A stretch of 64,000 nucleotides of DNA, taken from Terriglobia bacterium. GTDB lineage: Bacteria; Acidobacteriota; Terriglobia; Bryobacterales; Bryobacteraceae. Every line of letters starts with the position of its first letter. The stretch's first letter is position 1. The notes under the pieces are model-generated. The model had not been told where the DNA came from, searched no databases, and saw nothing but the letters and a program-made list of their open reading frames with translations. A program made the position numbers and the translations under genes. The DNA is taken from NCBI GenBank assembly GCA_021325235.1, contig JAJPHN010000034.1, positions 124,001-188,000 on the forward strand. Reading direction: 5' to 3'. Of the stretch, positions 1 to 19,124 are shown piece by piece.

Positions 1-1111
1 CAAAGCCGTCGGGCGGCGCCAGCTCCGGTTCTTCCTTAATTGAGCCGTGCTCGGGCGAGGCCATCAGCGGGGATTCATCCACAATCTCAAAATCGGTCGA
101 GCGCGGACCTTTGTTGCGCAGTTCCGCCATCGCAGCTTCCACATCGGGATCTTCGGTGACGTCGGTCCAGGTGCTGATATCGAAGTTGTCGCCGCCATCG
201 GCGAGAATCAGTCCGTATTGCGCGAGCTGCCGCAGCAGAACCTGCGCAATCGGGCTGAAATGCGAAGTGTCATAGGTCGCTTTCAGACGAAAGCGGGTGC
301 CGTACGGTATCTGTCCCCACGCGCCGGCATGCGCGCGGCCCGGCCAGACTGATCGCGGCGCAATCAGGTTATTGCGAAGAGTGAAGCGGATGGCGTGCTG
401 CACAAGACCATCGCGAATCTCCTGCAGCCCGAGCGTGAGCGGCGTGATCATCAGTCCAGCCGCATCCACCGCTCCCGCCGGCAGCGCGGTATCGAGGCTG
501 TTGTACTTCACGCCGCTCTGCGCCGTACACGTCGGGCACGCCTGGTTCACGCCCGCATCGTAAGCGTTATAAATTTCGAAGACATTGCAGTTCTCGCGAT
601 CAATTGCGACTTCGTGACGATCGAGCGGAGAATGCGGATCGGTGAAGACGCCGGCCTGCCGCTTGAGCTTCGGCCATTGCACCATCTCGAACTCGCCGTC
701 GTTCTGCGGCGTATACATGAAGTGCATCTTCTTGCGCGGCGTGCTCGAGTCGGCGAAATTGATGCCGTAATCGGGGAAGTAGTTAAGCTTCGCCGGCGGG
801 ATCAGCGCCATCCACTGCGCCGAGTGCGGATCGACCGGCAGCTTATCGATACGCGTATTCAGGATGTTGTCGTTGCCAAGCATCTGGCAGCCGCCCAGCG
901 AATGTTTCACCGGAATTGTCGGCGGTGCGTGATACGTGCCGTCCGGATCGATGGTTCCCACGCTGCCCGGCGCGAGCGACCAGGTCACCGGAGTATTGGC
1001 TGTGAGATGGATCGTGCCCCCGGCGGAAACGGCCGGCGGTTTCGACGGCGTGATCTTCACCGCCGCGGGCGAAAGCGCTGCCAAAGAGAGCAGCACAAAA
1101 AGAGGTCGCAT
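1..1111 (-). CDS. Secreted protein of an uncharacterised RIDxLPV/DAAGLP family (partial, C-terminus outside window)
   Basis: The gene is open to the left window edge, so only about 370 N-terminal residues are visible. It starts at ATG 1111 with a hydrophobic signal-peptide-like segment (MRPLFVLLSLAALSPAA). A short Ig-like segment follows (TPVTWSLAPGSVGTI ending DGTYHAPP), then a conserved core: GGC, NTRIDKLPV, DRHEVAIDRENCNVFEIYNAY, TAQSGVKY, DAAGLMITPL, QHAIRFT, YGTRFRLKA, QLAQYGLILADGG. The same order of motifs occurs in the proteins at 1422-4265 and 15846-19124, so these are paralogues. I recall similar secreted proteins in several bacterial phyla but know no name or activity for the core. 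Two nearby Cys residues (ACPTC) may form a disulfide. The gene is divergent from its nearest paralogue, 310 bases away. Confidence 0.85.
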   Translation of the reverse strand, partial: MRPLFVLLSLAALSPAAVKITPSKPPAVSAGGTIHLTANTPVTWSLAPGSVGTIDPDGTYHAPPTIPVKHSLGGCQMLGNDNILNTRIDKLPVDPHSAQWMALIPPAKLNYFPDYGINFADSSTPRKKMHFMYTPQNDGEFEMVQWPKLKRQAGVFTDPHSPLDRHEVAIDRENCNVFEIYNAYDAGVNQACPTCTAQSGVKYNSLDTALPAGAVDAAGLMITPLTLGLQEIRDGLVQHAIRFTLRNNLIAPRSVWPGRAHAGAWGQIPYGTRFRLKATYDTSHFSPIAQVLLRQLAQYGLILADGGDNFDISTWTDVTEDPDVEAAMAELRNKGPRSTDFEIVDESPLMASPEHGSIKEEPELAPPDGF

Positions 1112-1421
1112 CAAATCAACTGTTGCAGAGCGTCGGATCATCGTTTTCAAACGGGAACTGCTCTCTCGATTCGAGTGTATCGCCGGACGGCAGTTCTCAG
1201 CCTCAAAGCAGACCACCGAAACTGGTAGCGGCTCGCGAGCATTCGTCTCAGTCGCGGTTCCAAGAGTCGCTCGGGAGACGCACTCATTCACAACGCCAGC
1301 GATTTTTCCGCCGGAGTTGAAGTCCTTGCGAGTGTGGAATTTGCGCGCGCCCTCCGTTGCGCCCAGTAGAAACTACCCGCGCGCGCATGCTTGCTTAAAC
1401 GTTGGAAAGGATCAACCACTC
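1112..1421. other. Intergenic region between two divergent paralogues
   Basis: These 310 bases separate divergently transcribed family members and should carry both promoters. Open frames cross the region but none resembles a protein, and no convincing -35/-10 pair was found. The only site I would rely on is the purine-rich GGAAAGGA at 1404-1411, which is placed to act as the ribosome binding site of the gene at 1422. Confidence 0.5.
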
Positions 1422-4265
1422 TTGCTGTTGCTACGTAACCAGCGATTCCTGCTACTGCTCCTTGCGGCCGGGTGCGCGCTCGCTCAGACTCCAATCACGA
1501 CGGTCAATCTGGCCACGCAGGGCCGTAACGTCGATTTCGCCAATTTTCCGTTCACGCGGCCGGTGAGCGTGGGCGCTTCGCTGCCGTCCACCTGCCAGAT
1601 AGGCCAGCTGTTCTTCAACACTACCGCGGCGCCCGGCGCGAACCTCTACGGCTGCACCAGCACCAACACCTGGACCGCGCTGGCCAGCAGCAGTAACACC
1701 GCCGTCCCGCAGGTAAGCCTCAATCCGGCCAGTCTCAGCTTCGGCACACAGACAGTCGGGACGACCAGCGCTGCGAAAACCGTCACACTGACGAACTCCG
1801 GAGTTTCGTTCCTCTCCGTTTCGGCCATCAGCCTCACCGGCACCAACGCTTCGGACTTTCTGGTTTCGAATAACTGCGGAACCACCGTTCCCTCCGGCGC
1901 AAGCTGCACCATTACCGTCACGTTTCAGCCTTCGACGACAGCACTCGAAACGGCCGCGGTATCGATCAGCGGCAACGAGCCCGGCTCTCCGGTGCTGATC
2001 AGCCTGACCGGCAGCGGAACAGCGGCCATCACCAGCGGCGGCCTTGTGATCACGCCTTCGGCCAGCTACGCGGCGGAAAACGGCAGCGTAACTCTGACGG
2101 CCAATCGTCCGGTGAACTGGGCGATGATATCGGGCAGCGCCGGAACACTTACGGCCAATAGCAGCACGTCCGCCACCTACTCAGCACCTGGAACAATCGC
2201 CGCACAGAACGCGATCGGCGGCTGTCCCACATCTCCCAACGATTCCGTCTTTAACACGCGCATCGACAGTCTGCCGGTTCTCAGCGCTTCGAGTACGTGG
2301 ACATCGAACCTCGGCACCGCCGGGCTCAATTTTCTATCGAGCTGGGGCACCAACATCGCCGATGCTACGACGCCTGTAAAGTCGATGATATTTTTCTACA
2401 CGCCGGCCTACAATGGCCCGTTCGTGATGCCGCAATGGCCGGTGCTGAAACGCGAAGGCGGCGAGTTTGGCACGCGGCTCAACGGCACCGACCACCACAT
2501 CATGACCGTGCGCAAAGACAATTGCCAATTCTACGAAACCTACAACGACTGGTTCACGCCGGGCCTCTGCCGCGACGGCGTGACGCAGGGCTGTAACGCG
2601 CAGAGCGGTTTCACGTACGCCTGGAACAACTACGCTCTGCCCACGCAGGGATCGACCGATGCCGCCGGCCTGCCGCTCGCGCCGCTGATGCTGCATCTCG
2701 ACGAGATCAAAGCCGGCGCGATCCACCACGGCATGCGCTTCACCGTCTCCGGCGGTCTGATCAACAACTCACCGGTGTGGCCCGCAAACGGCAGCAACGG
2801 AGGCTGCGCCGGGTGCGCTCAGTTCCCCGTTTACGGCACGCGTTTTCGTCTGAAGGCGAGCTACAACATCAGCAGCTTCAGCCCGGCCGCACAGGTCGTG
2901 CTAACCGCGCTGAAGCAATATGGCATGTTCCTGGCCGATGCAGGCACCGGGCCCACCGTCACCATGAACACCGATGTTACCGAAGACCCTACGGTGATGG
3001 CCGCGCTCGCACAAATTGCTGCGGCAGCCATCAATATGACGAACTTCGAAGCGGTGGATGAATCGAGTCTGATGGTGAGCAATACGTCCTGGCGTGTGAA
3101 TCCGGCCAACGGATACGTCACCCCCGCGCAATTCGCCGCCGTTCAGGCCACCGATCAGACCAACTCTTCGTATCAGGTCACGCTGCCCATTCCGCTGCGC
3201 AGCGTGAACGTGGGCCTGCCTTCGCCGACTCTGGCAATTGCCGCGGGCGTCCCCGGCTATCAGCTCACCTCCTGGGTCAATGGGACGTCCAACCAGAGCG
3301 TTACCTGGTCGCTGGTGTCGGGCGTTGGCACGGTCACGGCGGGTGGGCTCTATACTCCTCCTGCGACGGTGTCCGCTGCCTCACAAGCCGTGCTGCAAGC
3401 GACCAGTGCGGCCGATGCGAACGCCAGCGCGACCCTGTACGTCACCGTGCTCCCTGTAGGCACAAGCCCGGCGGGCAGTATTCGCATCGATTCCGGCAAT
3501 CCCACGAGTTCCACGGATGGCGGCAATAATCTGTGGCTCGGCGATCAGGCCTTTGAAGCCGGTGATGTGGTGCAGTTGCCCTCCGATTATCCGAACTGGC
3601 CGAGCCTGAGCGGCAATATCGAGCGCAGCATGTATCAGAGCGCGATGCATACCTATGGCAGCGACATCGTGTACCGGATGATCGTGCCCAACGGCAATTA
3701 CAAAATCCGTATCATGTTCGGGCAGCTCTATAACGGTTGCTCGGGCGCGAGTTGCACGTCATTCGATCCAACCTGGCACGCGCCGCTGCTGCTCGAAGCC
3801 AACGGCCAGATTGCCGCGCACAACTTCGATTTCGGGTTGCCGATTAATCATCAGTACGCCACGCCCACGGACGCTTATATTCCGGCAACCGTGACCGACA
3901 ACACCCTGTACATCGCGCTGCGCATCAATCTGCCGGATGTGGTCACGAGCGCGCAGCCATCGCCGAACATCAACGGTCTCGAAATCATTCCCGATAGCAG
4001 CGCCGCGCATCTGGCCATCGACACCCAGCAGCAGACGAGCGTGGCCGCTGGAAGTACGCTGCAGCTCTACGCCATCGGCTGGTATATGAGCAACGCTGTG
4101 ACGTGGTCGGTTTCCGGACCCGGCTCGATCAGCGCCACCGGGTTATACACGGCCCCGCTCAATGCCGGCTCTTCGCCGCAAAACGTGACCATTACGGCCA
4201 CCAGCACGGCCAATCCGAGTATTCAGGCCACTGCAACGCTTACGATTCCAGCCAGCGGATCGTAA
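1422..4265 (+). CDS. Large secreted multidomain protein: choice-of-anchor D, Ig-like, uncharacterised core, malectin-like
   Basis: The frame stays open back to 936, but the signal peptide (LLLLLRNQRFLLLLLAAGCALAQ) marks the true start. I chose TTG 1422, ten bases after GGAAAGGA, giving about 947 residues. Order of parts: signal peptide 1-25; an IGQLFFNTT...WTAL segment at about 60-90; a choice-of-anchor D Ig-like domain (SLNPASLSFGTQTVG) at 97-196; an Ig-like strand set at 205-260; the family core (NTRIDSLPV, TDHHIMTV, AQSGFTY, DAAGLPLAPL, IHHGMRFT, RFRLKA, LADAGTG) at 265-553; a second Ig-like domain (SVTWSLVSG...GGLYTPP) at 605-676; a malectin-like domain (GSDIVYRMIVPNGNYKIRIMFG) at 686-856; and a last Ig-like domain. 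Malectin folds bind carbohydrate, so glycan contact is a reasonable inference. No catalytic function can be assigned. Confidence 0.85.
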   Translation: MLLLRNQRFLLLLLAAGCALAQTPITTVNLATQGRNVDFANFPFTRPVSVGASLPSTCQIGQLFFNTTAAPGANLYGCTSTNTWTALASSSNTAVPQVSLNPASLSFGTQTVGTTSAAKTVTLTNSGVSFLSVSAISLTGTNASDFLVSNNCGTTVPSGASCTITVTFQPSTTALETAAVSISGNEPGSPVLISLTGSGTAAITSGGLVITPSASYAAENGSVTLTANRPVNWAMISGSAGTLTANSSTSATYSAPGTIAAQNAIGGCPTSPNDSVFNTRIDSLPVLSASSTWTSNLGTAGLNFLSSWGTNIADATTPVKSMIFFYTPAYNGPFVMPQWPVLKREGGEFGTRLNGTDHHIMTVRKDNCQFYETYNDWFTPGLCRDGVTQGCNAQSGFTYAWNNYALPTQGSTDAAGLPLAPLMLHLDEIKAGAIHHGMRFTVSGGLINNSPVWPANGSNGGCAGCAQFPVYGTRFRLKASYNISSFSPAAQVVLTALKQYGMFLADAGTGPTVTMNTDVTEDPTVMAALAQIAAAAINMTNFEAVDESSLMVSNTSWRVNPANGYVTPAQFAAVQATDQTNSSYQVTLPIPLRSVNVGLPSPTLAIAAGVPGYQLTSWVNGTSNQSVTWSLVSGVGTVTAGGLYTPPATVSAASQAVLQATSAADANASATLYVTVLPVGTSPAGSIRIDSGNPTSSTDGGNNLWLGDQAFEAGDVVQLPSDYPNWPSLSGNIERSMYQSAMHTYGSDIVYRMIVPNGNYKIRIMFGQLYNGCSGASCTSFDPTWHAPLLLEANGQIAAHNFDFGLPINHQYATPTDAYIPATVTDNTLYIALRINLPDVVTSAQPSPNINGLEIIPDSSAAHLAIDTQQQTSVAAGSTLQLYAIGWYMSNAVTWSVSGPGSISATGLYTAPLNAGSSPQNVTITATSTANPSIQATATLTIPASGS

Positions 4266-4325
4266 CGCCGGCGTGCGGGACGGGTTCTCGCGATTCGTCC
4301 CGCACGTTAGCATCAAAGCGATGGC

Positions 4326-5471
4326 ATGAATGTGTCCACCGTCGTATTCCTGGCGAGCGTTGCCTTCGTCCTCTATGTGCTGATCGGCTATCCGTCGGCA
4401 CTCGCCTTCTTTGCAAAGCGTTTTCCGCGCCCCATCGTGAAACGATTCGAGCCGCACAGGATCACGGTTATCGTACCGGTGCGCAACGGCGAGCGCTGGA
4501 TTCGCGCCAAGCTCGATTCGCTGCTCGCTTCCGATTATCCGCCCGATCTGATTGACATTCTGATCGTTTCGGACGGCTCAACCGACTCGACCAATCAAAT
4601 CGTCGCCAACTATCCGGATTCACGCGTGCGTTTACTCGCGCTGCCCGCCGGCGGCAAAGCAACTGCGGTTACGCGCGCGGTCGAGCAGACCAGTTCCGAC
4701 ATTCTGGTGCTCACCGACGTGCGCCAGGCGTTCGATCCGCAAGCCATCCGGCTGCTGGTCGCCTGTTTCGCCGATCCGAAGGTGGGCGTCGTCACCGGCG
4801 AGCTCGTCATTCGCGAGGGCAACACGCAGGAAGAGTTCAACACCGGCCTCTATTGGAAGTACGAAAAATGGATTCGCCGCAATCTCAATCGCGTCGATGC
4901 CATGCTCGGCGTTACCGGCTCCATCTACGCCGCGCGCCGCGAAGCCATGCCTGCGATTCCGCCCGAGATTCTGCTCGACGACGTTTATGTTCCGTTCAAG
5001 GCCGTCTTCGCCGGCTATCGCATCTATTTTGAGGACCAGGCGAAGGCCTACGATCTGCCCACCTCGCTCCATTCCGAATTTCGCAGAAAAGTTCGCACCC
5101 AGGCCGGCGTCTACCAGATCATTCGCTACTTCCCCGCCCTGCTCTGGCCCGGCAACCGGCGCTTCATTCATTTCTTCTCGCACAAGTTTGGCCGCTTGCT
5201 GCTGCCCTTTGCGCTGATTGCGATTTTCGTGAGTAGCTTCGGCTTGCCGGATCCCTGGCGCTGGCTCGTGTTAGCCGCGGAGGCCTGTTGGTATGGCGCG
5301 GCGTTCCTCGATCGCTGGCTGCCGGAACGATTTCCGCTCAAAAGACTGACTGCACCCATCCGGGCATTTGTCGTGCTGGTAGCCGCCGCGTTCTGCGCTC
5401 TCGCCGTCTTCTTCCTCCCGGCGCGCACGCTTTGGAAAGAAACAAAGGTGAGTGAAGCAAAAGCGGCGTGA
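4326..5471 (+). CDS. Membrane-associated family 2 glycosyltransferase
   Basis: The 381-residue protein begins with a transmembrane helix (VVFLASVAFVLYVLIGY, 5-22). A GT-A domain follows: VIVPVRNGERWI at 48-59, DGSTDST at 83-89, an LTDVRQAF stretch at 129-136 in place of the usual DxD, and LLDDVYVP at 216-223. Two or three hydrophobic segments close the protein (about 285-370). Family 2 enzymes of this shape transfer sugars from nucleotide sugars onto envelope lipids or polysaccharides. The substrate cannot be read from sequence. ATG 4326 is used; the ribosome binding site is weak. The gene follows the secreted protein by 60 bases and ends against the converging S21 gene, separated by a hairpin. 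Confidence 0.9.
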   Translation: MNVSTVVFLASVAFVLYVLIGYPSALAFFAKRFPRPIVKRFEPHRITVIVPVRNGERWIRAKLDSLLASDYPPDLIDILIVSDGSTDSTNQIVANYPDSRVRLLALPAGGKATAVTRAVEQTSSDILVLTDVRQAFDPQAIRLLVACFADPKVGVVTGELVIREGNTQEEFNTGLYWKYEKWIRRNLNRVDAMLGVTGSIYAARREAMPAIPPEILLDDVYVPFKAVFAGYRIYFEDQAKAYDLPTSLHSEFRRKVRTQAGVYQIIRYFPALLWPGNRRFIHFFSHKFGRLLLPFALIAIFVSSFGLPDPWRWLVLAAEACWYGAAFLDRWLPERFPLKRLTAPIRAFVVLVAAAFCALAVFFLPARTLWKETKVSEAKAA

Positions 5472-5477
5472 GAAAGC

Positions 5478-5505
5478 AAAAAGGCCGGCATCGCTGCCGG
5501 CCTCT
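5478..5505 (-). terminator. Rho-independent terminator of rpsU
   Basis: A perfect 8-bp stem, GGCCGGCA-TCGC-TGCCGGCC (5483-5502), is followed on the minus strand by a run of five T, as expected for the end of rpsU. The plus strand has a poorer pyrimidine tract (TCTTCTC), so partial termination of the converging glycosyltransferase gene is possible. Confidence 0.85.
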
Positions 5506-5511
5506 TCTCAC

Positions 5512-5712
5512 TTACGATTCAATTTCGCGCGGACGCTTCTTGCGATTACGCTTGCGTGCCAGCGCTTCCTTGGTCCGGCGCTTTTCACCGGGCTTCAGAT
5601 AAAACGAGTGTCGCTTGATCTCCTTGACGATATCTTCCTGCTGCACTTTCCGTTTGAAGCGGCGCAGAGCGCTTTCGAGCGTCTCGCCTTCCTGCAGATG
5701 CACTTCTGCCAA
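5512..5712 (-). CDS. rpsU: Small ribosomal subunit protein bS21
   Basis: The 66-residue basic protein has the S21 signature: EVHLQEGETLESALRRFKRKVQQ, then KRHSFYLKPGEKRRTKEALARKRNRKKR. Its length fits the family. The frame begins at TTG 5712; the residues AEV just after it match the usual S21 N-terminus, and AAGGTGG lies about ten bases upstream, so TTG is preferred over the internal GTG. It acts in the 30S subunit near the 3' end of 16S rRNA. The gene is divergent from eno across about 96 bases and ends at a clear terminator. Confidence 0.95.
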   Translation of the reverse strand: MAEVHLQEGETLESALRRFKRKVQQEDIVKEIKRHSFYLKPGEKRRTKEALARKRNRKKRPREIES

Positions 5713-5799
5713 TTAAGAATTCACCACCTTCCGCAAGACTCCAGTGTAGCGCGCCAGAGCCTCGCGCCACTGTTAAACCAGCTCTGCTTGTTACAGTGA

Positions 5800-7091
<1,292 letters not shown>

Positions 7092-7092
<1 letters not shown>

Positions 7093-8630
7093 TGGGCAAG
7101 CCGCTCGTTCTCACAATCCTCGATGGCTGGGGCTATTCGCCCGCCACCGAAGGCAACGCCATCGCACTCGCGCGCAAGCCCACCTACGATCATCTGCTCG
7201 CCAGCTATCCGAACACGCTGGTGCACACGTCGGGCCCGTATGTCGGCCTGCCCGAAGGCCAGATGGGCAACAGCGAAGTCGGCCATATGAATATCGGCGC
7301 GGGCCGCGTCGTCTATATGGATGTCACGCGGATCGACATGCAGATCAGCTCCGGCGAATTCTTCTCAAATCCGGTGCTGCTCAATGCCCTCAAGAAAGCC
7401 GAAGGCCACCGGCTGCATCTGCTCGGACTCTGCAGCGACGGCGGCGTGCATGCGCAGCTGACGCATCTCTATGCGCTGCTCGAAATGGCGAAGAAGCACG
7501 GTTTGCGCGACGTCTTCGTGCATTGCTTCATGGACGGCCGCGATACGCCTCCCGAAAGCGGCGCCGGCTACATCGAACAGCTCGAGAAAAAGCTGCGCGA
7601 ACTCGGCATCGGAAAAATCGCGTCGGTTTCGGGCCGCTACTACGCCATGGATCGCGATAAGCGCTGGGAGCGCATCGAGCGCGCATTCGGCGCCATAGTG
7701 CTCGGCAACGGCGCGAAGTTTACCTCAGCGGTGGAAGCCGTGCGCAAATCCTACGAACGCGGCGTCACCGACGAATTCATCGAGCCGGTTACCATTGTCG
7801 ACGAAAATGGCGAACCCATCGGGCTGATTCGCGACGACGACAGCATCGTGATGTACAACTATCGCGCCGACCGTGCGCGCGAGATTACCATGGCGCTCAC
7901 CGATCGCTCGCTCACCCAGCCGTCGCGCTCGCTCGTGCCGAAAAATCTAACGTACACCATGATGACCCAGTACGACAAGAATTTCGGCCTGCCGTTCGTG
8001 CTCCCGCCCGAGCATCCCGACAACATCCTCGCCGATGTGCTCGAGCGCGCCAACTGGAAAAATCTGCGCGTCGCCGAAACCGAGAAGTACGCGCACGTCA
8101 CCTACTTCTTCAACGGCGGCAACGAAAAGCCGTACGCCGGCGAAGAGCGCGAGCTGGTCGCATCGCCGAAGGTCGCAACTTACGATCTGCAGCCTCAGAT
8201 GAGTGCGCCCGGCATTACCGGCAAGATTGTCGAAGCTATCGAACAGGGCAGCTTCGATCTGATCGTCATGAACTATGCCAATGCCGACATGGTCGGGCAT
8301 TCCGGCAAGCTCGAGCCGACCGTCCGCGCGGTGGAAGCAGTCGATGCCGGGCTCGGCGAGATCTACCAGGCGCTCAAACGCACTGGCGGCTCGTGGCTCG
8401 TAACCGCCGATCACGGCAATGCCGAAATGATGATCGATCCGGTCACGAAAGGTCCGCACACGTACCACACGACCAATCCCGTACCGCTGATCTACATGTC
8501 GAATGAGCAGACCGCTTTGCGAGAGGGCGGTGCACTGCGCGACATCGCGCCCACGGTACTCGGAATTTTAGGCATTGAACGCCCGGCTCAAATGCGCGGC
8601 GACGACCTGCGGCTCGCGCAGAGCCGCTGA
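7092..8630 (+). CDS. gpmI: 2,3-bisphosphoglycerate-independent phosphoglycerate mutase
   Basis: The 512-residue protein has the alkaline-phosphatase-fold mutase motifs: [11 protein letters not shown] at the N-terminus (metal Asp), [17 protein letters not shown] with the nucleophile Ser at 61, [51 protein letters not shown] and [10 protein letters not shown]. Length is typical for the manganese-dependent, cofactor-independent type. It interconverts 3- and 2-phosphoglycerate. It overlaps eno by one base, giving an eno-gpmI pair for lower glycolysis. It ends five bases from the converging polyprenyl synthase gene with no room for a separate terminator. Confidence 0.97.
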
Positions 8631-8635
8631 TCCTT

Positions 8636-9634: not shown

Positions 9635-9660
9635 GTTTCCGGTAAAGTGCGGCGGCTCCC

Positions 9661-10464: not shown

Positions 10465-10465
10465 T

Positions 10466-12406
10466 CTATTTGAGACGCGCTCCGGGCGGAATGTCTTCGT
10501 GAAAACCGGCCAGCACCGGCAGCCCGCCTTCCACGCTCGCCGCCACGATCATCCCCTGCGAAGTCACCCCCCGCAATTTTCGCGGTTCCAGATTCGCCAC
10601 GATCACTACCTTGCGCCCAATCAGCTGCTCCGGTTTGTAAGCGAGTGCAATGCCGGCCACGATGGTGCGCGGCTCGGCCTCTCCGATATCGACTTTCAGA
10701 TGCAGCAGCTTATCCGCGCCCTTCACCGGTTCGGCCGACTTCACCTCGCCCACCCGTAGATCGACTTTCGCGAAATCGTCGATCGAAATCAGATTCGCAA
10801 CCGGCTCACTCGCGGCCTTCGTCTGCTCCGCCTGGCCCATCAGCGCCGCCTGGCGCGTCTTTTCCTTCTGCTCGAGATCCTGCATCTTTTCAATCGCCGG
10901 CTTCGCATCCACGCGCGGGAACACTGCTGAAATCGCTCCAATCTGCTGCCCCGGCTGCAAGCCGCCCCACGCCAGCACTTCTTTCCACTGTGCAGCTTCA
11001 AGCGGCTCCGCATAACCCAGCTGTTTCCAGATCGCCTGGGTCGAAGCGGGAAGCACCGGATGCGCCAGCAGGCAAATCAATCGCAGCGCCTCGGCCGCCG
11101 TATAGAGCGTCTCGTCGAGCCTCGTCTGCGCTTCCTCGCCGGAATCCTTGGCCAGCTTCCAGGGCGCGCGCTCCACGATAAATTTGTCCACGTTCGAGAT
11201 CAGGCTCCAGATCGTCTCGAGTGCGCGCGTGAAGTTGAGCGCTTCGTACTCCCGGATCGCGTTCGCGATGGTCAGCTCGGCCGCCTGCATCTGCTCATTC
11301 GCGCCGCGCGCCTGCGGAATCGCACCCGCCCGATACTGCTGAATCATGTTCAGCGTGCGGCTCGCCAGATTGCCCAGCCCGTTCGCCAGATCCGCGTTGT
11401 AGCGGCCCACCAGCGCGTCGAAACTGAAGCTGCCATCCTGCCCGAACACAATCTCACGCAGCAGAAAATAGCGCAGAGCGTCGGCGCCCATGACCTCGGT
11501 AATCGGCGTCGCCCGGACAATGTTCCCGCGCGACTTGCTCATCTTGTCGTTTTCAAACAGCAGCCAGCCATGCGCGAAAACTCGTTTCGGCAGTTCCCAT
11601 CCCGCCGCCATCAAAAAGGCGGGCCAGAAGACGGCATGGAAACGCAGAATCTCTTTGCCGATCAGATGCAGGTCGGCCGGCCAGCGATCCTCGCCTGCAA
11701 CCGCGCTGATGTATGTCGTCAGTGCGTCGAACCAGACGTAGAACACATGCTCTGGATCGCTCTCAACCGGAATGCCCCACTTAATACTCGTGCGCGTGAT
11801 CGACAGGTCCGTAAGCCCCTGCCGCACGAACGCCAGCACCTCGTTGCGCCGGATCTCCGGCTGAATAAAATCGGGATTCTCTTCGTAAAATGCGAGCAGC
11901 CGCTCGGTAAAGGCCGACAGCTTGAAAAAGTAATTCTCTTCCGTGACCTCTTCATAGGGCTTGCCGGTTGCCGGATCGATATCGCCCGGCTTCGCGTCGT
12001 TCACAAAAGCCTCGTCGACTACCGAATACAAACCCGTATAGCTGCCTTTGTAGATATAGCCGTTCGCTTTACAGGCTTCGAAAAGCTTATTGACCAGCTT
12101 CGCGTGCGCCGGATTCGTGGTGCGTTGAAAACGATCGATGCGCAGCCCCAGCTTCTCCCATTGCACGCGAAACTCGTTCGAGATCACGTCCACAAACGCG
12201 TCCGGCTTTTTGCCCTGCGCTTCAGCCGCACGCTCCACTTTTGTGCCGTGCTCATCGGTGCCGGTCGTCAGCACGACATCGAAGCCCTGCATACGTTTGA
12301 AGCGCGCAATGGTTTCCGCCGCAATCGTCGTGTACGCGTGCCCGATATGCGGCGCCGCGTTGACGTAGTAAATCGGAGTCGTGAGGTAATACTTGCCGTT
12401 GCTCAT
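10466..12406 (-). CDS. metG: Methionine--tRNA ligase with C-terminal tRNA-binding domain
   Basis: The 646-residue protein shows the class I signatures: PHIGHAYTTIAAE (HIGH) near residue 18 and DKMSKSRGNIV (KMSKS) near 300. The C-terminal 110 residues (SIDDFAKVDLRVGEVKSAEP to SQGMIVAA) form an EMAP/Trbp111-like tRNA-binding domain. The connective peptide (YSVVDEAFVNDAKPGDIDP) has no Cys pairs where zinc-binding forms have knuckles, so this looks like a zinc-free type. ATG 12406 directly abuts the larC stop (TGAATG), implying translational coupling. Confidence 0.97.
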   Translation of the reverse strand: MSNGKYYLTTPIYYVNAAPHIGHAYTTIAAETIARFKRMQGFDVVLTTGTDEHGTKVERAAEAQGKKPDAFVDVISNEFRVQWEKLGLRIDRFQRTTNPAHAKLVNKLFEACKANGYIYKGSYTGLYSVVDEAFVNDAKPGDIDPATGKPYEEVTEENYFFKLSAFTERLLAFYEENPDFIQPEIRRNEVLAFVRQGLTDLSITRTSIKWGIPVESDPEHVFYVWFDALTTYISAVAGEDRWPADLHLIGKEILRFHAVFWPAFLMAAGWELPKRVFAHGWLLFENDKMSKSRGNIVRATPITEVMGADALRYFLLREIVFGQDGSFSFDALVGRYNADLANGLGNLASRTLNMIQQYRAGAIPQARGANEQMQAAELTIANAIREYEALNFTRALETIWSLISNVDKFIVERAPWKLAKDSGEEAQTRLDETLYTAAEALRLICLLAHPVLPASTQAIWKQLGYAEPLEAAQWKEVLAWGGLQPGQQIGAISAVFPRVDAKPAIEKMQDLEQKEKTRQAALMGQAEQTKAASEPVANLISIDDFAKVDLRVGEVKSAEPVKGADKLLHLKVDIGEAEPRTIVAGIALAYKPEQLIGRKVVIVANLEPRKLRGVTSQGMIVAASVEGGLPVLAGFHEDIPPGARLK

Positions 12407-13567
12407 TCAGGAGTTAAGATGCTTGCGAAATGCCTCGCTTGCTTCGGCCATCACGGCCCGCAGCGCGACACCATGCTCGGCGGCGGCGCGGCGGCAGTCG
12501 TCGTATTCGGGCGCGAACGTGCCTGTTTCCGTATACTTGATGCCGATCTTGCCGTAGCGCGTTTCGATCTCGGTGGCCTCGCGTCCCAGCACGCGCCGTG
12601 TGGCCTGATGACTGCGAATGCCCAGCGTGGTGGTCTCCGCAAATAGGATCTGCGCCAGCCTGTCCGCCTGTTCCGGCACAGCCAGGATCGACACAATCGT
12701 GCCCGGGCGGTTCTTCTTCATCAGCACCGGCGTGAGCGTCACATCGAGCGCACCCGCCTCGAACAATCGCTCCATGGTGTAGCCGAGCACCTGCGGCGAG
12801 GAATCGTCGATATTGGCTTCGAGCACCGTCACCGTGGTCGCCTCCGCCGCTCCGCTCGATTCGCCGATCAGCACGCGCAGGACATTCGCCTGCTGCGAAA
12901 AATCCTTGTCGCCTGCGCCGAAGCCTTGCGAGAGCAGCCGCACAGCGGGTAGCGGTCCGAATTTCGCCGCCAGCGTGGAGACGAGTGCTGCCCCGGTAGG
13001 TGTGGTGAGTTCGGTCTGCGGTCCCCTGGCGTACACCGGAGCATCTTTGAGCAGTTCCGCGGTGGCCGGCGCCGGTACCGGCAGCGTGCCATGCTCGGTC
13101 TCCACCGTACCGCTGCCCACGTTGATGTCGGAACAGCGAATTTCGTCCACACCGAGCAGATCGAGCGCCACACACGCGCCGACGACATCCGAAATCGAAT
13201 CCACCGCGCCGACTTCGTGAAAATGCACCTTCTCGATCGGCACGTTATGCGACTTCGCCTCGGCCTCGCCCAGCCTCCGAAAGACCGCCAGCGCATTCTC
13301 GCGCGCCTTTTCGGACAACTCGCCCGCTTGGATAATCTTCTTGACATGCGGAAGGTGCCGGTGCTTCTTCTGCTCCGCAAACCGCACGGAAAACTTCGAC
13401 GCCGCGATCCCTTTGCGCTTCGTCTTTTCGAGCTGATACTCAGCTTCGAGCTGCAGACTGCGCAGCGCGGCTTCGAGCGCCTGCCAATCCGCGCCGGCAT
13501 CCACCAGCGCCCCGACCGTCATGTCGCCGCTGATCCCCGAGAATGCGTCGAAATAGCAGACTTTCAT
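12407..13567 (-). CDS. larC: Nickel insertion protein LarC (pyridinium bisthiocarboxylate mononucleotide nickel chelatase)
   Basis: The protein from ATG 13567 (386 residues) begins MKVCYFDAFSGISGDM, the LarC hallmark. It continues with HFHEVGAVDSISDVVGA, PVPAPATAELLKDAPVY, TPTGAALV, ANIDDSSPQVLGYTMERLF and VLMKKNRPGTIVSIL. The open frame extends 16 codons further upstream, but this start fits the family. LarC inserts nickel into the cofactor of lactate racemase and related enzymes. No larA, larB or larE gene is visible here, so the client enzyme lies elsewhere. It is the first gene of the larC-metG-tatD-polyprenyl synthase operon. Confidence 0.93.
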   Translation of the reverse strand: MKVCYFDAFSGISGDMTVGALVDAGADWQALEAALRSLQLEAEYQLEKTKRKGIAASKFSVRFAEQKKHRHLPHVKKIIQAGELSEKARENALAVFRRLGEAEAKSHNVPIEKVHFHEVGAVDSISDVVGACVALDLLGVDEIRCSDINVGSGTVETEHGTLPVPAPATAELLKDAPVYARGPQTELTTPTGAALVSTLAAKFGPLPAVRLLSQGFGAGDKDFSQQANVLRVLIGESSGAAEATTVTVLEANIDDSSPQVLGYTMERLFEAGALDVTLTPVLMKKNRPGTIVSILAVPEQADRLAQILFAETTTLGIRSHQATRRVLGREATEIETRYGKIGIKYTETGTFAPEYDDCRRAAAEHGVALRAVMAEASEAFRKHLNS

Positions 13568-13872
13568 GGAGTTTCCGCCGTCCGCGCAGTGCGTGAGCGT
13601 ATCACCAGTGTACAAATGCGCCGCGAAACTCCCTCACGATGGGCGACGGCAGCTATCTCACTGCACGCACTTCCTCCGCGGGCTGTCCGAATGCTGATCT
13701 GATTAGCGGGTTTGAGCATCCTGGCGAACGGCTCCGTACAGCCGCGGCACCTGCCATCGGTTCGGGGCAAGCTGATCGTCAGACCTCGCGCTCCGTTTGG
13801 GCCTGCGAGCATTCGCTGTCCTCCGGCCTGCGCTCGAGGAACTTCTCGCGCCGGACCTGTAAACAACCATCC
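13568..13872. other. Intergenic region without a convincing gene
   Basis: About 305 bases between divergent larC and the retropepsin gene. A 109-codon minus-strand frame covers it but has no recognisable domain, no signal peptide and a composition typical of an antisense shadow. I see no tRNA, strong hairpin or repeat here. Confidence 0.5.
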
Positions 13873-13897
13873 GCGCATAAGATAATGAGCCATGCGC
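13873..13897 (+). promoter_or_regulatory. Palindrome-framed -10-like element at the retropepsin start codon
   Basis: GCGCAT (13873-13878) and ATGCGC (13892-13897, containing the start codon) frame a GATAAT hexamer at 13881-13886. The ATG begins six bases after the hexamer, which would suit a leaderless transcript. A closely matching element precedes the gene at 15208. This is inference from sequence only. Confidence 0.4.
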
Positions 13898-15121
13898 GGG
13901 CGCGCCCTCGTCTTTATCCTCCTAGGTTTAATTGCTCAAGGACTCCATGCGGCTTCAGCTGAGGACCTTGCTCGGCTGTATAAGACTCACGAATGGTTCA
14001 AGCTCATGCATGCCGTGCAAGGAACAGAAGTCCCGCTGTTCTTTCGTGGGACAGTTGAGTGCGCCTTGGACAAAACGGAACCGTGCATTCGAGCAATGAC
14101 GGAAGTGATCAAAACTGCACAAGGTCGGCAAGACGAGCACGAAGCACACTCGATCCTCGCCGGGTTTTACCTTCGCAAGGGAGAATATGCGGAATCACTG
14201 GCCGAAACAGAAAGAATTCTCGCCGTAAGCCCGGACGACGCTGATGCTCAGGGCAACATTGCGTTCCTGAGGGCTGCAGCCAGATTTCCTGATCAGAGAA
14301 TCGTCTCGGCAGGGACCGCACATCTGTCCTGGACATATCCAGGAAAATCGCTTACTATTCCCCTCACCATAAACGGTAAGCGCGCAAATTACTTCATTGA
14401 CACGGGCGCAAATGTCTCAACCATGAGCGACGCGGATGCGCAGCGTCTCGGGTTGGAACTGCAGGAAGCCAGCGCCAGCGTCAACGGTGCGTCCGGTGCT
14501 TCGGCGCCCTTCAGAGTTGCAAATGCAAAACAGCTACGAATCGGCAACTTTGAACTGCAAAACGTCGTCTTTCTCGTATCTTCCGCGAATCAGCCTCCGT
14601 TCAATGACAAACCAGTGCTCGAGCAGGGCATCATCGGATTACCGATTCTGCTGGCAGCGAAGCACATTCGCTGGAATAGGAGCGGCTTTGACATTGTTGC
14701 CGATACGACTGCCGCGGCTGCCAGCCCCGCTCCAAATCTGCTCATGGACGAAGGTTATGTCATCGCAAACGCGACATTCCAGCACGATTCGCTCTCCTTC
14801 CTTCTCGATTCAGGCTCGATCTGGACCTTTATGTACCCTCGCTTCGCGCAGAACCACGTGAGTTACGTGAAAGCGCACGGGAGCATGACAAGCAAACAAC
14901 TTCAGGGCTTCGGCGGACAAATCAAGGTTCCGGCCTGGCACTTACCGAAACTTCGCGTCCGAATTGCTGAAACAGTAGATGATCTGAATGACGTCGACGT
15001 TCTTCTCGATCACACCGATCAGAACAGCTATCGCTATGACGGCTGTCTGGGACTCGATACGATGCTTCATCGAGGCATGGTGGATTTGAACTTCGAACAG
15101 ATGCAAATCGTCATTCGATAA
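13892..15121 (+). CDS. Secreted single-chain protease with two retropepsin-like aspartyl protease domains
   Basis: The 409-residue protein has a signal peptide (ALVFILLGLIAQGLHA, 5-20) and a helical TPR-like region (24-130). Two aspartyl-protease half-domains follow. The first has FIDTGANVSTM with Asp170-Thr-Gly and the flap-side motif QGIIGLPIL (245-253). The second has FLLDSGSIWTF with Asp306-Ser-Gly and DGCLGLDTML (383-392). Retropepsin-type enzymes work as homodimers with one Asp per chain; here both halves are in one polypeptide, as in pepsin. It is probably periplasmic or extracellular. Some bacterial relatives have a degenerate second site, but here both D-[ST]-G triads are intact. Substrate unknown. 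Confidence 0.85.
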   Translation: MRGRALVFILLGLIAQGLHAASAEDLARLYKTHEWFKLMHAVQGTEVPLFFRGTVECALDKTEPCIRAMTEVIKTAQGRQDEHEAHSILAGFYLRKGEYAESLAETERILAVSPDDADAQGNIAFLRAAARFPDQRIVSAGTAHLSWTYPGKSLTIPLTINGKRANYFIDTGANVSTMSDADAQRLGLELQEASASVNGASGASAPFRVANAKQLRIGNFELQNVVFLVSSANQPPFNDKPVLEQGIIGLPILLAAKHIRWNRSGFDIVADTTAAAASPAPNLLMDEGYVIANATFQHDSLSFLLDSGSIWTFMYPRFAQNHVSYVKAHGSMTSKQLQGFGGQIKVPAWHLPKLRVRIAETVDDLNDVDVLLDHTDQNSYRYDGCLGLDTMLHRGMVDLNFEQMQIVIR

Positions 15122-15189
15122 GTTTGGATGCCTGTTATCAGCCCCTCCCCCTTGCCTGCGCGGCTCTAATCATCCCCCTCACTGCACTC

Positions 15190-15212
15190 CGCATAACATA
15201 ATGAGCTATGCG
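15190..15212 (+). promoter_or_regulatory. Second copy of the palindrome-framed -10-like element
   Basis: CGCAT (15190-15194) and ATGCG (15208-15212) frame CATAAT at 15197-15202, followed by GAGCT and the ATG. Layout and most bases match the element at 13873. It suggests that the DinB-like gene and the retropepsin gene are read from matching, possibly leaderless, promoters. Confidence 0.4.
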
Positions 15213-15738
15213 CCGTCTCCCCCTGCTCTTCGCCTTCTCCGCCCTCCTGCTCGCCCAGAACCAGACCAAGCCGCCCCAAACTCTGCGCGGCGTCCTGCTC
15301 GAACAGCTTCACACCACCCATGATCAGGAAGACTGGTTCGTCCCCATCAACATCGCCGTCAAAGGACTCACCGCGGACCAGGCCAAATGGACCCCCGGCA
15401 AAAACGACCACTCCATCGGCCAGCTCGTCAACCATCTCGCCTTCTGGAACGAGCGCGCCCTCCAGCGCTTCAAAGGCGAAAAGGCCGCCCCGTATAACGG
15501 CAACAACGACGAAACCTTCAACAGCTTCGACGCCCGCAGCTGGACCGAAACCACCGCGCGCCTCGATCGCGTCATGAAAGCCTGGGAGCAGGCCGTCGAG
15601 AACGCCGACGAAGCCACTTTAACCAAGAACGCCTCGCTCGTGGCGCATATCGGTACCCACAACGCCTACCACGTCGGGCAGATCCTCTATATCCGCAAAC
15701 TACAAGGTTCCTGGGATCCCGCAAACGGCGTCAAATAG
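15208..15738 (+). CDS. Secreted DinB-like four-helix metalloprotein
   Basis: The 176-residue protein starts with a signal peptide (RRLPLLFAFSALLLAQNQ) and continues as a DinB/YfiT-type helical bundle. The likely metal-binding His triad is His76 (VNHLAFWNER), His151 and His155 (HIGTHNAYHVGQILYIRK). DinB-superfamily proteins include thiol-dependent transferases and many of unknown role. Export is unusual for them but recurs in soil bacteria. The gene sits alone in the direction of its neighbours, 86 bases after the retropepsin gene. Confidence 0.85.
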   Translation: MRRLPLLFAFSALLLAQNQTKPPQTLRGVLLEQLHTTHDQEDWFVPINIAVKGLTADQAKWTPGKNDHSIGQLVNHLAFWNERALQRFKGEKAAPYNGNNDETFNSFDARSWTETTARLDRVMKAWEQAVENADEATLTKNASLVAHIGTHNAYHVGQILYIRKLQGSWDPANGVK

Positions 15739-15845
15739 CGGTTCAAATTTGGAACAAATGAATCGGCCTTTTCCTCCGAGCCCACCCCAGGAAATCCTTC
15801 GCCCTCCCTTCTAAAGAAATGCGTGTTTTGGCCGATACGTAGGCT

Positions 15846-18800
15846 GTGACACGTACTACAAGTTCTAAGAAAAGCCTGCTGGCAGTACTTCCCGGCAGCC
15901 ATCTGCTCCTCTCGTTCGGACTGCTCCTGGCAACGGCCCTCCCCGGCATGGCGCAGCAAAACGTTTTCGGTTGTCCGGTCCATCCTTCGAATTCTGTCTT
16001 TTACGCCCGTATCGATTCTTTGCCTGTTTTGAGCCAGAGTGCCACCTACACCGCCAACATGAGCGGCATGGCCCTGACCTGGGACGCAGGCTTTGGGGTT
16101 ACCCTCTCAGATTCTTCCGCCCCCACCATCCAGGCGCAGTTCTACTACACTCCGGCCTATAACGGCACCTGGCGCTATCCCGCCTACTACACTGTCGACC
16201 GGCAGGGAGGCGCTCTCGGCGGCAACGACGGTGCCGATCACCACACCATCGTCGTGGATTCCGATACTTGCACCATCTGGGAAACCTATCATGCGTATGT
16301 CAATCCGGTAGACGGCTCGATCAAGCCGGCGGCCTGCGGCAGCAAAACCTGCAATGCCCAGAGCGGCTGGAAATACGACGCCACCAGTTCTGCCCTGCCT
16401 TCCCAGGGAACCACCGACGCGGCAGGCCTGCCTCTGCTCCCGCTGATCTGGCGCGGACACGAGATTATGGATGGCTCCATTCAGCACGCTGTGCGGTTCA
16501 CTATGGCGCGCGGCTACATCCAGGCCGGTAATCCGATATGGCCCGCCAGCGGTACCAACGGCTGGGGCAACGCCAACAATCCGCCCTATGGCGCACGCTT
16601 CCGCCTGAAAGCAGGAACCGCCATCAGCCTCAGCGGCCTAACCGCTCAGCAGCAGGCCTACGCCAACACGATCATCGCCGGCCTGCAGCAGTACGGGCTC
16701 ATTCTCGCCGACGTCGGCACCAGCATGGTCGCTGAAGTGGACGACGAGGCCGGTGAAAATCCCGACATCATGACCGCTCTGAGCAAAGTCGGCAGCCAGA
16801 TCCATCCCGCTCAGCTCGAAGCAGTCGACCTCAGCTCACTCAAACCGGTCAACCCCAGCTATCAGGTCGCCGGCTCTGCGCCGTCCTCCACGCCCGTGCT
16901 CGTCGGCACGCCTTCCACCTACCTCAATATCCAGGCCGGCATGACCACGCAGATGACCGCCTGGGTCAGCGGTCCTGCCTCCACGCAGGCCGTCACCTGG
17001 CAGGTCCTTTCCGGCAACATCGGCACCGTCACCTCCGATGGCCTCTACACCCCGCCGTCTGAGGTATCAACCATCACCACCGGCGTCTTACAGGCTACCT
17101 CCGTCGCCGATCCCAGCGCCACCGCCACCGTATATGTGCGTGTTCTGCCCTCGGGCGCCATTCGAATCGCCGGCGGCATCCGATCCGGCACCGTGACCGA
17201 CAAACTCGGTCAGGTCTGGCAACCCAACCTGATCTTCCGGGGGGGCGCGGTCTACCATGCCGGCGATAACCCCGCCTGGGCGCTCCCCAACAACGTGACG
17301 CAGGCTGCCCAGATGTCCATCTATCAAGGCTATTTCTACAGCTACGGCAACGATCTCTACACCCAGATCGTCGTTCCGAACGGCACCTATAACGTGCGCT
17401 TCATGTTCGGCCAGCCCTACAACGGCGGTTCCGCTCAGACCTGTTCGCCGTTCCCGGCTACCTGGCACGACTATGTGAGTCTCGAACTGCAGAACACCAT
17501 CCAGGTGAGCAACTTCGACTTCGGCGCATCCATCGGACATGCTTGCGCCGTGCCCGTCGACGTGAACCTCACGGCCACGGTCACCAATAACGTCCTCGAA
17601 ATTGCGCTGCGCGGCTCCGTCCCCGATGGCGCGCCCACCACGTCTCCCATGCTCAACGGTCTCGAAATCACACCGAGCAGCGGCTCTCCCACCGGCACTC
17701 CGCAGGTCACGCTCAGCACCAACAGCCTGAACTTCGGTGCCCAGGCTATCGGCTCAAAAACTGCTCCCCAGGTCGTGACCGTCTCGAATACCGGCACCGC
17801 TCCTCTCCATGTCTCCGGCGTCACGCTGCAGGGTGCTAACCCCACCGACTTCGGCGTGACTCATAACTGCGGTAGCGTCCCCGCCAACGGCTCCTGCACC
17901 GTATCGGTCACATTCACCGCTTCGAACTCGGGCACGCGCAACGCGGCCGTGGTGATCGCCAACACTGTCAGCTCACCGCAGGTCACCGTCACGGGCTCCG
18001 GCGGTTCACCCAAAATCTCGTTCAGCGAAAATGTCGTGCACTTCTCGAATCAGACCGTCGGCACCACAAGCACGGCCCTCAACCTCACGTTGACCAATTC
18101 GGGCACCGCCGCGCTGAACCTTGCCGCCCCAACCCTGACCGGCGCACGAGCGGCGGATTTCGCAATCGCTTCCAATGGCTGTACCGCCGCGCTCAATCCC
18201 GGTGGTACCTGCTCGCTCGCCCTAACCTTCTCGCCCAAGGCGTTCGGAGTGCGCTCGGCCACGTTGAATCTGACCAATAGCGCCAGCTGGAAGCAATCCG
18301 TTCAAATCAGCGGCCGCGGAACCGCGCTGAATTATCCCGCGGAATGGCGACCCTCTACCGGCACCTGGTATCTGCTGCCCAACGGGGTCCCATCCGTCAA
18401 ACAGTGGGGTGTGCCCACCGACATCCCGGTCACCGGCGACTTCGACGGCGACGGTAAACCGGACATCGCTGTCTGGCGTCCGTCTAACGGCACCTGGTAC
18501 GTCGTCCCGAGCAAAACCGGTCAGGCCTACAGCCATCAATGGGGCGCGAACGGCGACATCCCGGTTCCCGGCGACTACGATGGCGATGGCATCACCGATT
18601 TCGCCGTCTGGCGTCCCTCAACCGGCACCTGGTGGGTGATCCCCAGCAGCACCGGTTTTGCCTATAGCCATCAGTGGGGCTTGCCTGGTGATATCCCGGT
18701 CCCCGGCGATTACGACGGCGACGGCAAAACCGACTACGCTATCTGGCGCGCCGATGGCGGTATGTGGTGGGTCATTCCCAGCAGCACCGGATTCGCCTAC

Positions 18801-19124
18801 ACCCATCAATGGGGCGCTAAGGGCGATATCCCGGTTCCCGGCGATTACGACGGCGACGGCAAAACCGATTACGCTGTCTGGCGTCCGAACGGCGGCATGT
18901 GGTGGATCATTCCCAGCACAACCGGATTCGCCTACAGCCATCAATGGGGTGCCAACGGCGACATCCCGGTCCCCGGCGACTTCGACGGCGATGGCAAAAC
19001 CGATTACGGCGTCTGGCGTCCCGATGGCGGCAATTGGTACGTCATTCCCTCCACCACCGGTGTCCCCTGGATTCATCAGTGGGGTGCCAAGGGCGATGTG
19101 CCGATGAAGAACTTCATCAACTAG
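15846..19124 (+). CDS. Giant secreted protein: uncharacterised core, malectin-like, choice-of-anchor D and FG-GAP repeats
   Basis: GTG 15846 precedes a long signal peptide (SHLLLSFGLLLATALPGMAQ, ending near residue 38), giving 1092 residues. The family core spans 41-345 (YARIDSLPV, ADHHTIVVDSDTCTIWETYHAY, AQSGWKY, DAAGLPLLPL, IQHAVRFT, YGARFRLKA, LQQYGLILADVG). An Ig-like segment (350-440), a malectin-like domain (446-620; GNDLYTQIVVPNGTYNVRFMFG) and two choice-of-anchor D domains (about 618-822) follow. The tail (833-1090) has 45-residue repeats with DYDGDGKTDYAVWRP, a calcium-binding FG-GAP-like pattern. Compared with the 1422 paralogue, the Ig modules were moved and the repeats added. Probably a surface or extracellular glycan-contacting protein; activity unknown. 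Confidence 0.88.
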   Translation: MTRTTSSKKSLLAVLPGSHLLLSFGLLLATALPGMAQQNVFGCPVHPSNSVFYARIDSLPVLSQSATYTANMSGMALTWDAGFGVTLSDSSAPTIQAQFYYTPAYNGTWRYPAYYTVDRQGGALGGNDGADHHTIVVDSDTCTIWETYHAYVNPVDGSIKPAACGSKTCNAQSGWKYDATSSALPSQGTTDAAGLPLLPLIWRGHEIMDGSIQHAVRFTMARGYIQAGNPIWPASGTNGWGNANNPPYGARFRLKAGTAISLSGLTAQQQAYANTIIAGLQQYGLILADVGTSMVAEVDDEAGENPDIMTALSKVGSQIHPAQLEAVDLSSLKPVNPSYQVAGSAPSSTPVLVGTPSTYLNIQAGMTTQMTAWVSGPASTQAVTWQVLSGNIGTVTSDGLYTPPSEVSTITTGVLQATSVADPSATATVYVRVLPSGAIRIAGGIRSGTVTDKLGQVWQPNLIFRGGAVYHAGDNPAWALPNNVTQAAQMSIYQGYFYSYGNDLYTQIVVPNGTYNVRFMFGQPYNGGSAQTCSPFPATWHDYVSLELQNTIQVSNFDFGASIGHACAVPVDVNLTATVTNNVLEIALRGSVPDGAPTTSPMLNGLEITPSSGSPTGTPQVTLSTNSLNFGAQAIGSKTAPQVVTVSNTGTAPLHVSGVTLQGANPTDFGVTHNCGSVPANGSCTVSVTFTASNSGTRNAAVVIANTVSSPQVTVTGSGGSPKISFSENVVHFSNQTVGTTSTALNLTLTNSGTAALNLAAPTLTGARAADFAIASNGCTAALNPGGTCSLALTFSPKAFGVRSATLNLTNSASWKQSVQISGRGTALNYPAEWRPSTGTWYLLPNGVPSVKQWGVPTDIPVTGDFDGDGKPDIAVWRPSNGTWYVVPSKTGQAYSHQWGANGDIPVPGDYDGDGITDFAVWRPSTGTWWVIPSSTGFAYSHQWGLPGDIPVPGDYDGDGKTDYAIWRADGGMWWVIPSSTGFAYTHQWGAKGDIPVPGDYDGDGKTDYAVWRPNGGMWWIIPSTTGFAYSHQWGANGDIPVPGDFDGDGKTDYGVWRPDGGNWYVIPSTTGVPWIHQWGAKGDVPMKNFIN
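18343..19121 (+). repeat. 135-bp in-frame tandem repeats encoding FG-GAP-like units
   Basis: Repeat units begin at 18420, 18555, 18690, 18825, 18960 and 19095 (last one cut short), with an exact 135-base period and a partial unit before the first. Each codes for 45 residues with GDIPVPGDYDGDGKTD and HQWG. The DNA as well as the protein is very similar between units, which points to recent tandem duplication. Confidence 0.95.

Follow-up and report, generated by a model that had tools for sequence, protein, structure and literature searches.

We have found that a core shared by three proteins encoded in the first 19,124 positions of the window (the whole stretch of 64,000 nucleotides that was analysed) belongs to a real and widespread domain family, common to exported bacterial proteins and tailed phages, and that this core lacks a name in the libraries searched. 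The connection with phages goes beyond what an initial sequence-only reading of the window had noted and is now the main feature of the finding. It links phages to exported proteins of Acidobacteriota and suggests, in testable form, what a class of minor tail protein in Gordonia phages may do. As to function, the explanation that we favour, and to which we would give nearly an even chance, is that of an extracellular domain, most likely enzymatic, whose target is polysaccharide at the cell surface or outside the cell, and which phage tails use as well.

The three window proteins are exported multidomain proteins read from open reading frames (ORFs), in each of which the core was located by alignment and profile. 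P0003 (1–1111, minus strand) is cut by the edge of the window with its ORF still open; the gene continues for 1,829 bases beyond the edge, giving a full length of 979 residues from the ATG at 1111, and its core occupies residues 72–352 (56–898, minus strand). The frame of P0002 (1422–4265, plus strand) is open upstream to 936, so that its exact start is unsure. A family scan places a choice-of-anchor D/HYDIN-like Ig module at 1689–2018 (75.1 bits against a cutoff of 45), which is followed by the core (residues 265–553, 2214–3080) and a malectin-like module (3480–3923), all on the plus strand. In P0001 (15846–19124, plus strand) the core comes first (residues 41–335, 15966–16850) and is followed on the same strand by a malectin-like module (17193–17612) and, from the family scan, two choice-of-anchor D/HYDIN-like Ig modules (17697–18320, 127.1 bits) and FG-GAP repeats (18429–19112, 69.8 bits against a cutoff of 26.9). 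The sequence-only reading had proposed that these modules are combined in differing orders, which is borne out. Its malectin-like modules are confirmed in the full P0003 gene (102.8 bits) and fall below the Pfam cutoff of 23 bits in P0001 (20.1 bits) and P0002 (20.4 bits). The matches to Malectin (PF11721) lie outside the core, which is thus not a member of that family; Malectin and choice-of-anchor D occur in the same proteins as the core, but as flanking modules. The starts of P0003 and P0001 are hydrophobic and resemble export signals by a simple hydropathy measure, which is not a signal-peptide predictor.

The cores are 295 (P0001), 289 (P0002) and 281 (P0003) residues long. Identity to the P0001 core is 44% for P0002 and 36% for P0003, and identity to the P0002 core is 43% for P0001 and 45% for P0003, in agreement with the ~300-residue common core originally described. 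The motifs listed for it are all present in the alignment, P0003 departing from them slightly in DAAGLP..PL, where M replaces P, and in I.H..RFT, where V replaces I. None of 20 core members matched any Pfam model up to E 10, and the same 20 gave just two chance-level matches in NCBIfam (0.056 and 0.26, one member each) and none to the catalytic Pfam and NCBIfam models for named carbohydrate-active enzyme families. The core had no match among PDB chains by sequence, nor did Pfam, up to E 1, match it in seven divergent members and three phage proteins. One divergent relative, L098, matched a beta-1,3-glucanase chain (E 0.021) and a complement inhibitor (E 0.99), both of which we take as chance. 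The listings and opening parts of abstracts covered by our literature search contained no paper describing the domain.

The sequence-only reading had mentioned similar sequences in other phyla, and the core indeed occurs in five or more bacterial phyla. Searching species genomes with the three-row alignment gave 12 loci, which belong to Acidobacteriota, Chloroflexota, Pseudomonadota and, through a Chitinispirillaceae MAG, Fibrobacterota; Actinomycetota is represented by three plasmids, from Streptomyces and Kitasatospora. A 20-row profile was run phylum by phylum, the counts taking in genomes that supplied query rows. It detected the core in 37 of 247 genomes for the phylum to which the window belongs, in 47 of 251 for that of the Anaerolineae MAG (the Chloroflexota search), in 14 of 150 for that of the Chitinispirillaceae MAG and in 5 of 398 for that of Parachitinimonas; one of these last five is a match of 47 residues with an internal stop and is probably due to chance. 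A domain carried by 37 of 247 and 47 of 251 genomes, to which the libraries searched assign neither name, structure nor function, clearly merits study. Most of the nearest named relatives of the window are acidobacterial MAGs, one of which shares a gene pair with the window genome. That genome itself carries five copies, three in the window and two on other contigs, the E-values being ≤5.4e-151 for the three window rows, from which the profile was itself built, and 7.2e-51 and 1.4e-49 for the two others. Copies 4 and 5 have C-terminal repeats that we read as ricin-type lectin.

The relationship to phages emerges from several comparisons. A minor tail protein family, PHROG 17388, was matched by 13 of 20 core members (best E 1.9e-7), and in the four members examined singly the match spans positions 323–428 of the 702 in the profile. 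The P0002 core itself does not match this family and is linked to it via its relatives. By tblastn the P0002 core recovered no phage, and a search with the N-terminal segment of P0002 gave one match, at E 0.4. With L012, a member from Anaerolineae, tblastn at the loose limit of E 1 returned 50 phage records, 49 from Gordonia phages and one from a Microcystis phage (best 1e-6), of which one spans more than 80% of the query; a compact relative, L020, also found phages in this way, and with L098, the divergent relative, the Microcystis phage was the single one recovered. The Gordonia phage proteins with the core are mostly annotated as minor tail protein, the others as 'hypothetical protein' and, in one record, 'glycosylhydrolase'. 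Aligned against each other in a single hhalign comparison, 20 bacterial and seven Gordonia phage rows gave a probability of 98.8% (E 7.4e-17), and a profile of bacterial members recovers all eight phage proteins among the ORFs of the fetched loci at ≤9e-15. The predicted structure of the P0002 core gave four matches in a library restricted to viral proteins, with E-values from 6.1e-15 to 3.2e-8; a Gordonia phage minor tail protein (E 2.0e-13) is among them, and the other three are unnamed or uncharacterised.

Further viral relatives came from IMG/VR, where the 20-row alignment identified five contigs holding close relatives (L109–L113); neither the window cores by themselves nor L024 or L012 as single queries matched anything there. 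The Gordonia alignment found nine contigs, one of which is identical to the query over the core. Recognisable phage structural genes are present on three of the five contigs: a nearby tail sheath gene in L109, terminase and portal genes in L113 and, in L110, a gene whose product is related to a structural protein of Tunturiibacter phage virions. The host listed for these phages, Tunturiibacter psychrotolerans, is an acidobacterium. In Tunturi_1 the core domain is absent from the stretch examined (30 kb of 63 kb). The neighbouring gene has no phage relative in L112 and short or low-complexity ones in L111, so that these two contigs are viral by their IMG/VR label alone. Read from sequence, L109–L112 have the layout of the window proteins, with the core followed by Ig-like and malectin-like regions, and L113 consists of the core alone with no hydrophobic start. 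In a tree made by a quick method from 49 hand-chosen rows of 98, one group (100% SH-aLRT) unites the window's three cores with four from acidobacteria and with those of L109–L112; within it L112 pairs with L009 (99%) and L109 with L110 (91%), L111 standing apart, and L113 is placed outside it. Should all five contigs be viral, phages and bacteria would have exchanged the core several times; with the count restricted to the contigs that have phage structural genes, the viral copies would fall in two separate places in the tree.

The presence of four viral-labelled rows among chromosomal ones in a single clade, and of a terminase-like gene near copy 4 of the window genome, could also be accounted for if the core were a structural or virion-assembly scaffold, its conserved residues holding the fold, and the bacterial copies leftovers of phage genes. 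We consider this very unlikely, since bacterial ORFs with the core are intact, widespread and joined to varied partners, and no phage genes were seen around the window copies when the ORFs of positions 1–22000 and of 6 kb outside the window were read by eye. The window genes are instead located among cellular genes, such as those for enolase, phosphoglycerate mutase and methionyl-tRNA ligase, as read from ORFs, together with a family 2 glycosyltransferase adjoining P0002 (4326–5471, plus strand; PF00535, 74 bits), which is the one neighbour that a family scan covered. Given these cellular surroundings and the lack of a virion gene module, we do not class the window proteins as tail proteins.

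The conserved Asp, His, Glu and Arg residues to which the sequence-only reading drew attention stay constant well outside the three window proteins. In the numbering of the P0002 model, D97, H99, E112, E168, H176, T181 and R216 are found in all 78 bacterial rows and D246 in 77, and 10 of the 22 columns conserved at ≥97% in these rows are D, H, E or R; the counts take no account of relatedness, and the rows are the best-scoring profile matches of the phylum searches rather than every match, which favours conserved members. Rows from duplicate loci (L014, L015, L016, L030, L060, L065 and L085), one cut L003 fragment and weak second stretches were dropped, and L064 gave no row. Over all 98 rows, H176 is present in 98, D97 in 97 (with one gap), D246 in 97 and E168 in 96, the other two having D. 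All eight rows from named phages (seven Gordonia, one Microcystis) keep D97, E168, H176 and D246 and all lack H99 (S or A), E112 (D in seven, R in the other) and R216 (A or Y). The five IMG/VR rows all have D97, H99, H176, R216 and D246, with E112 replaced by D in one and E168 by D in two. The seven divergent bacterial rows all keep E168, H176 and D246; six have D97 (with one gap), five have H99, and E112 and R216 are kept in three each. The residues thus comprise a core set found in nearly all branches and an accessory set that is missing from the named-phage copies and partly from the divergent rows.

PHROG 17388 and the Gordonia phage proteins have a homologous core with D97, E168, H176 and D246 in common, but their copies are without H99, E112 and R216 and still keep a similar predicted fold. 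This might be expected if the domain is non-catalytic and either binds glycans in the manner of a lectin, possibly with a metal, or serves in adhesion; bacteria would then use it as an anchor on surface polysaccharide, and phage tails would use it to bind receptors. The partners of the core point the same way in being mostly non-catalytic, the window copies lying among Ig-like and malectin modules. Against this, six Asp, His, Glu and Arg residues are invariant in 78 of 78 bacterial rows, more than would be required of most binding modules, and at ~285 residues the core is large for such a module. We regard a purely binding role as possible but somewhat unlikely, and an enzyme is our first choice by a modest margin, which the conserved acidic and histidine residues suggest.

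Structure prediction gave confident models for the P0002 core (query positions 2202–3101, model meb505f300bb1, 15-row alignment; pLDDT 85.5, pTM 0.87) and for L012 (24-row alignment; pLDDT 93.0, pTM 0.91). The fold comparison that had been proposed as a check on a glycan-active domain gave it no support from a known fold of that kind: neither model matched any of 350,542 PDB chains at E 0.001 in Foldseek, the best values being 1.7 and 1.8, and the query TM-score was ≤0.15 in all 50 PDB rows listed per model. This suggests that the predicted fold is one without a solved example, with the proviso that Foldseek can miss distant folds and that this search was of PDB chains and run without a positive control. 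The pattern P.G.R...YG...D.G in the core resembles one in double-psi beta-barrel hydrolases (MltA, RlpA, expansin, GH45), and the core may thus have been such a barrel; this idea was set aside for want of a PDB match, the 50 rows listed per model all having query TM-scores ≤0.15. In both models H99 lies directly before, and E112 inside, two successive strands resembling a hairpin; if these strands pair, the two side chains would probably face the same way.

The partner domains and gene neighbours suggest a class of substrate. In 75 full bacterial ORFs, which exclude the three window proteins, a GH114 glycoside hydrolase domain directly follows the core in two (294.2 and 281.3 bits, both from the Chloroflexota search), and other partners are ricin-type lectin (three), Malectin (two), LamG (two), CBM96 (one) and dockerin (one). 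GH114 is a separate domain beside the core, none of the 20 cores matching any Pfam model up to E 10. In one of five phage proteins scanned with Pfam, that of Gordonia phage Forza, a polysaccharide deacetylase domain precedes the core (25.5 bits against a cutoff of 23.1). Of the relatives, L003 has the same divergent pair of P0002-like and P0003-like genes as the window, followed by two glycosyltransferases and a polysaccharide transporter, and L009 adjoins exosortase, EpsI-type and glycosyltransferase genes. These two lie inside exopolysaccharide or exosortase loci, but many other copies lie outside, and copies 4 and 5 of the window genome have no polysaccharide gene neighbour. Exopolysaccharide genes were found in four of nine further subfamily regions compared with two of 18 controls taken elsewhere in those genomes (one-sided Fisher about 0.07), where two of the four positive regions are on one contig, regions and controls were hand-picked (the nine regions for long ORFs) and several are shorter than 19 kb at contig ends. 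The count excludes the query sources L003, L009 and the window region, and L013, apparently the same locus as L121, was counted once. A link between this subfamily and polysaccharide genes is therefore suggestive.

An exported enzyme with a target other than polysaccharide, for example a cell-envelope peptidase or esterase, would also fit the conserved residues, as sets of His, Glu and Asp are common in metallopeptidases and esterases and the glycan substrate comes from context. It is quite unlikely in our judgement: no hydrolase relative appeared in Pfam or NCBIfam, nor in the PDB, whether searched by sequence or with Foldseek, and the clearest catalytic partners fused to the core are of glycan type, despite a glucose/sorbosone dehydrogenase domain in one core protein. 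From partner modules, gene neighbours and phage tails we infer polysaccharide as the substrate class. The proposal of an enzyme or binding domain acting on glycans keeps its support from glycan-type partner modules and has none from a known glycan-active fold. Counting against an enzyme on glycans are also the rarity of GH114 fusions (2/75), the weak association with exopolysaccharide genes, the change of E168 to D in two IMG/VR copies, the partial loss of H99, E112 and R216 in the divergent rows and the absence of a solved homologue of the core.

If the favoured reading of a polysaccharide-directed enzyme is correct, the core of ~285 residues would be a hydrolase, lyase or esterase on surface polysaccharide, which bacteria export alone or fused with lectin-type, Ig-like or glycoside-hydrolase modules and some copies of which, in the window subfamily, are encoded beside polysaccharide assembly genes. 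D97, E168, H176 and D246 are candidate active-site residues, with H99, E112 and R216 as putative accessory ones. The eight named-phage copies, having none of the accessory residues, may only bind; were H99, E112 and R216 catalytic, these copies would be dead. A more far-reaching version holds that the core represents a novel class of fold among enzymes of surface polysaccharide, its Asp/Glu/His site having no parallel in solved structures; bacteria would use it to build or trim the exopolysaccharide that they make and tailed phages to attack that polymer, the core being repeatedly exchanged between acidobacterial chromosomes and phages, and decayed to binding in the Gordonia tail copies; taken as a whole we think this speculative and rather unlikely. 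Tailed phages carry the core either as a tail protein or as a protein with an export-signal-like start encoded near structural genes, and there it would plausibly deal with the surface polysaccharide of the host. The N-termini of two Gordonia copies have hydrophobicities of 1.49 and 0.55, compared with 2.2–2.3 in P0001 and P0003.

The fourth copy of the core in the window's own genome lies ~2.3 kb away from a terminase-like gene on contig 42 (L115:10099-12979; PF03237, 29.9 bits), which is possibly the edge of a prophage. The ORF next to this gene gave no family in a Pfam scan.

In four IMG/VR contigs carrying the core, two of them with phage structural genes (L109 and L110) and two viral by label alone (L111 and L112), the core gene's immediate upstream neighbour (L109:774-2924, L110:3256-4779, L111:3349-4803 and L112:3164-4750) likewise has a hydrophobic start that resembles an export signal, as judged by a simple hydropathy measure. 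At least one of these four upstream genes reads as tail fibre-like. A virion gene module coding for exported proteins would be unusual.

Gordonia phages also encode the core. In the minor tail protein gp90 of Forza (L028:2162-5119) it is preceded by a polysaccharide deacetylase domain. For gene 18 of Stormageddon (L022:5242-7158) two records differ, one labelled 'glycosylhydrolase', with no grounds stated for that name, and the other 'minor tail protein'.

Ahead of its core, the N-terminus of P0002 holds a segment of the type C..G.L..NTT......CT.TNTW (window 1509-1691). This segment is found again in a relative with a P0002-like and P0003-like gene pair (L003:3-1226, minus strand), and, judged by eye only, a similar segment stands in a gene of its own on phage contig L109 (121-855). 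A multidomain protein from the Chloroflexota search (L070:766-3843, minus strand), the ORF of which runs off the end of the fetched stretch, combines in a single chain a GH114-associated domain, a glucose/sorbosone dehydrogenase domain, the core and GH114.
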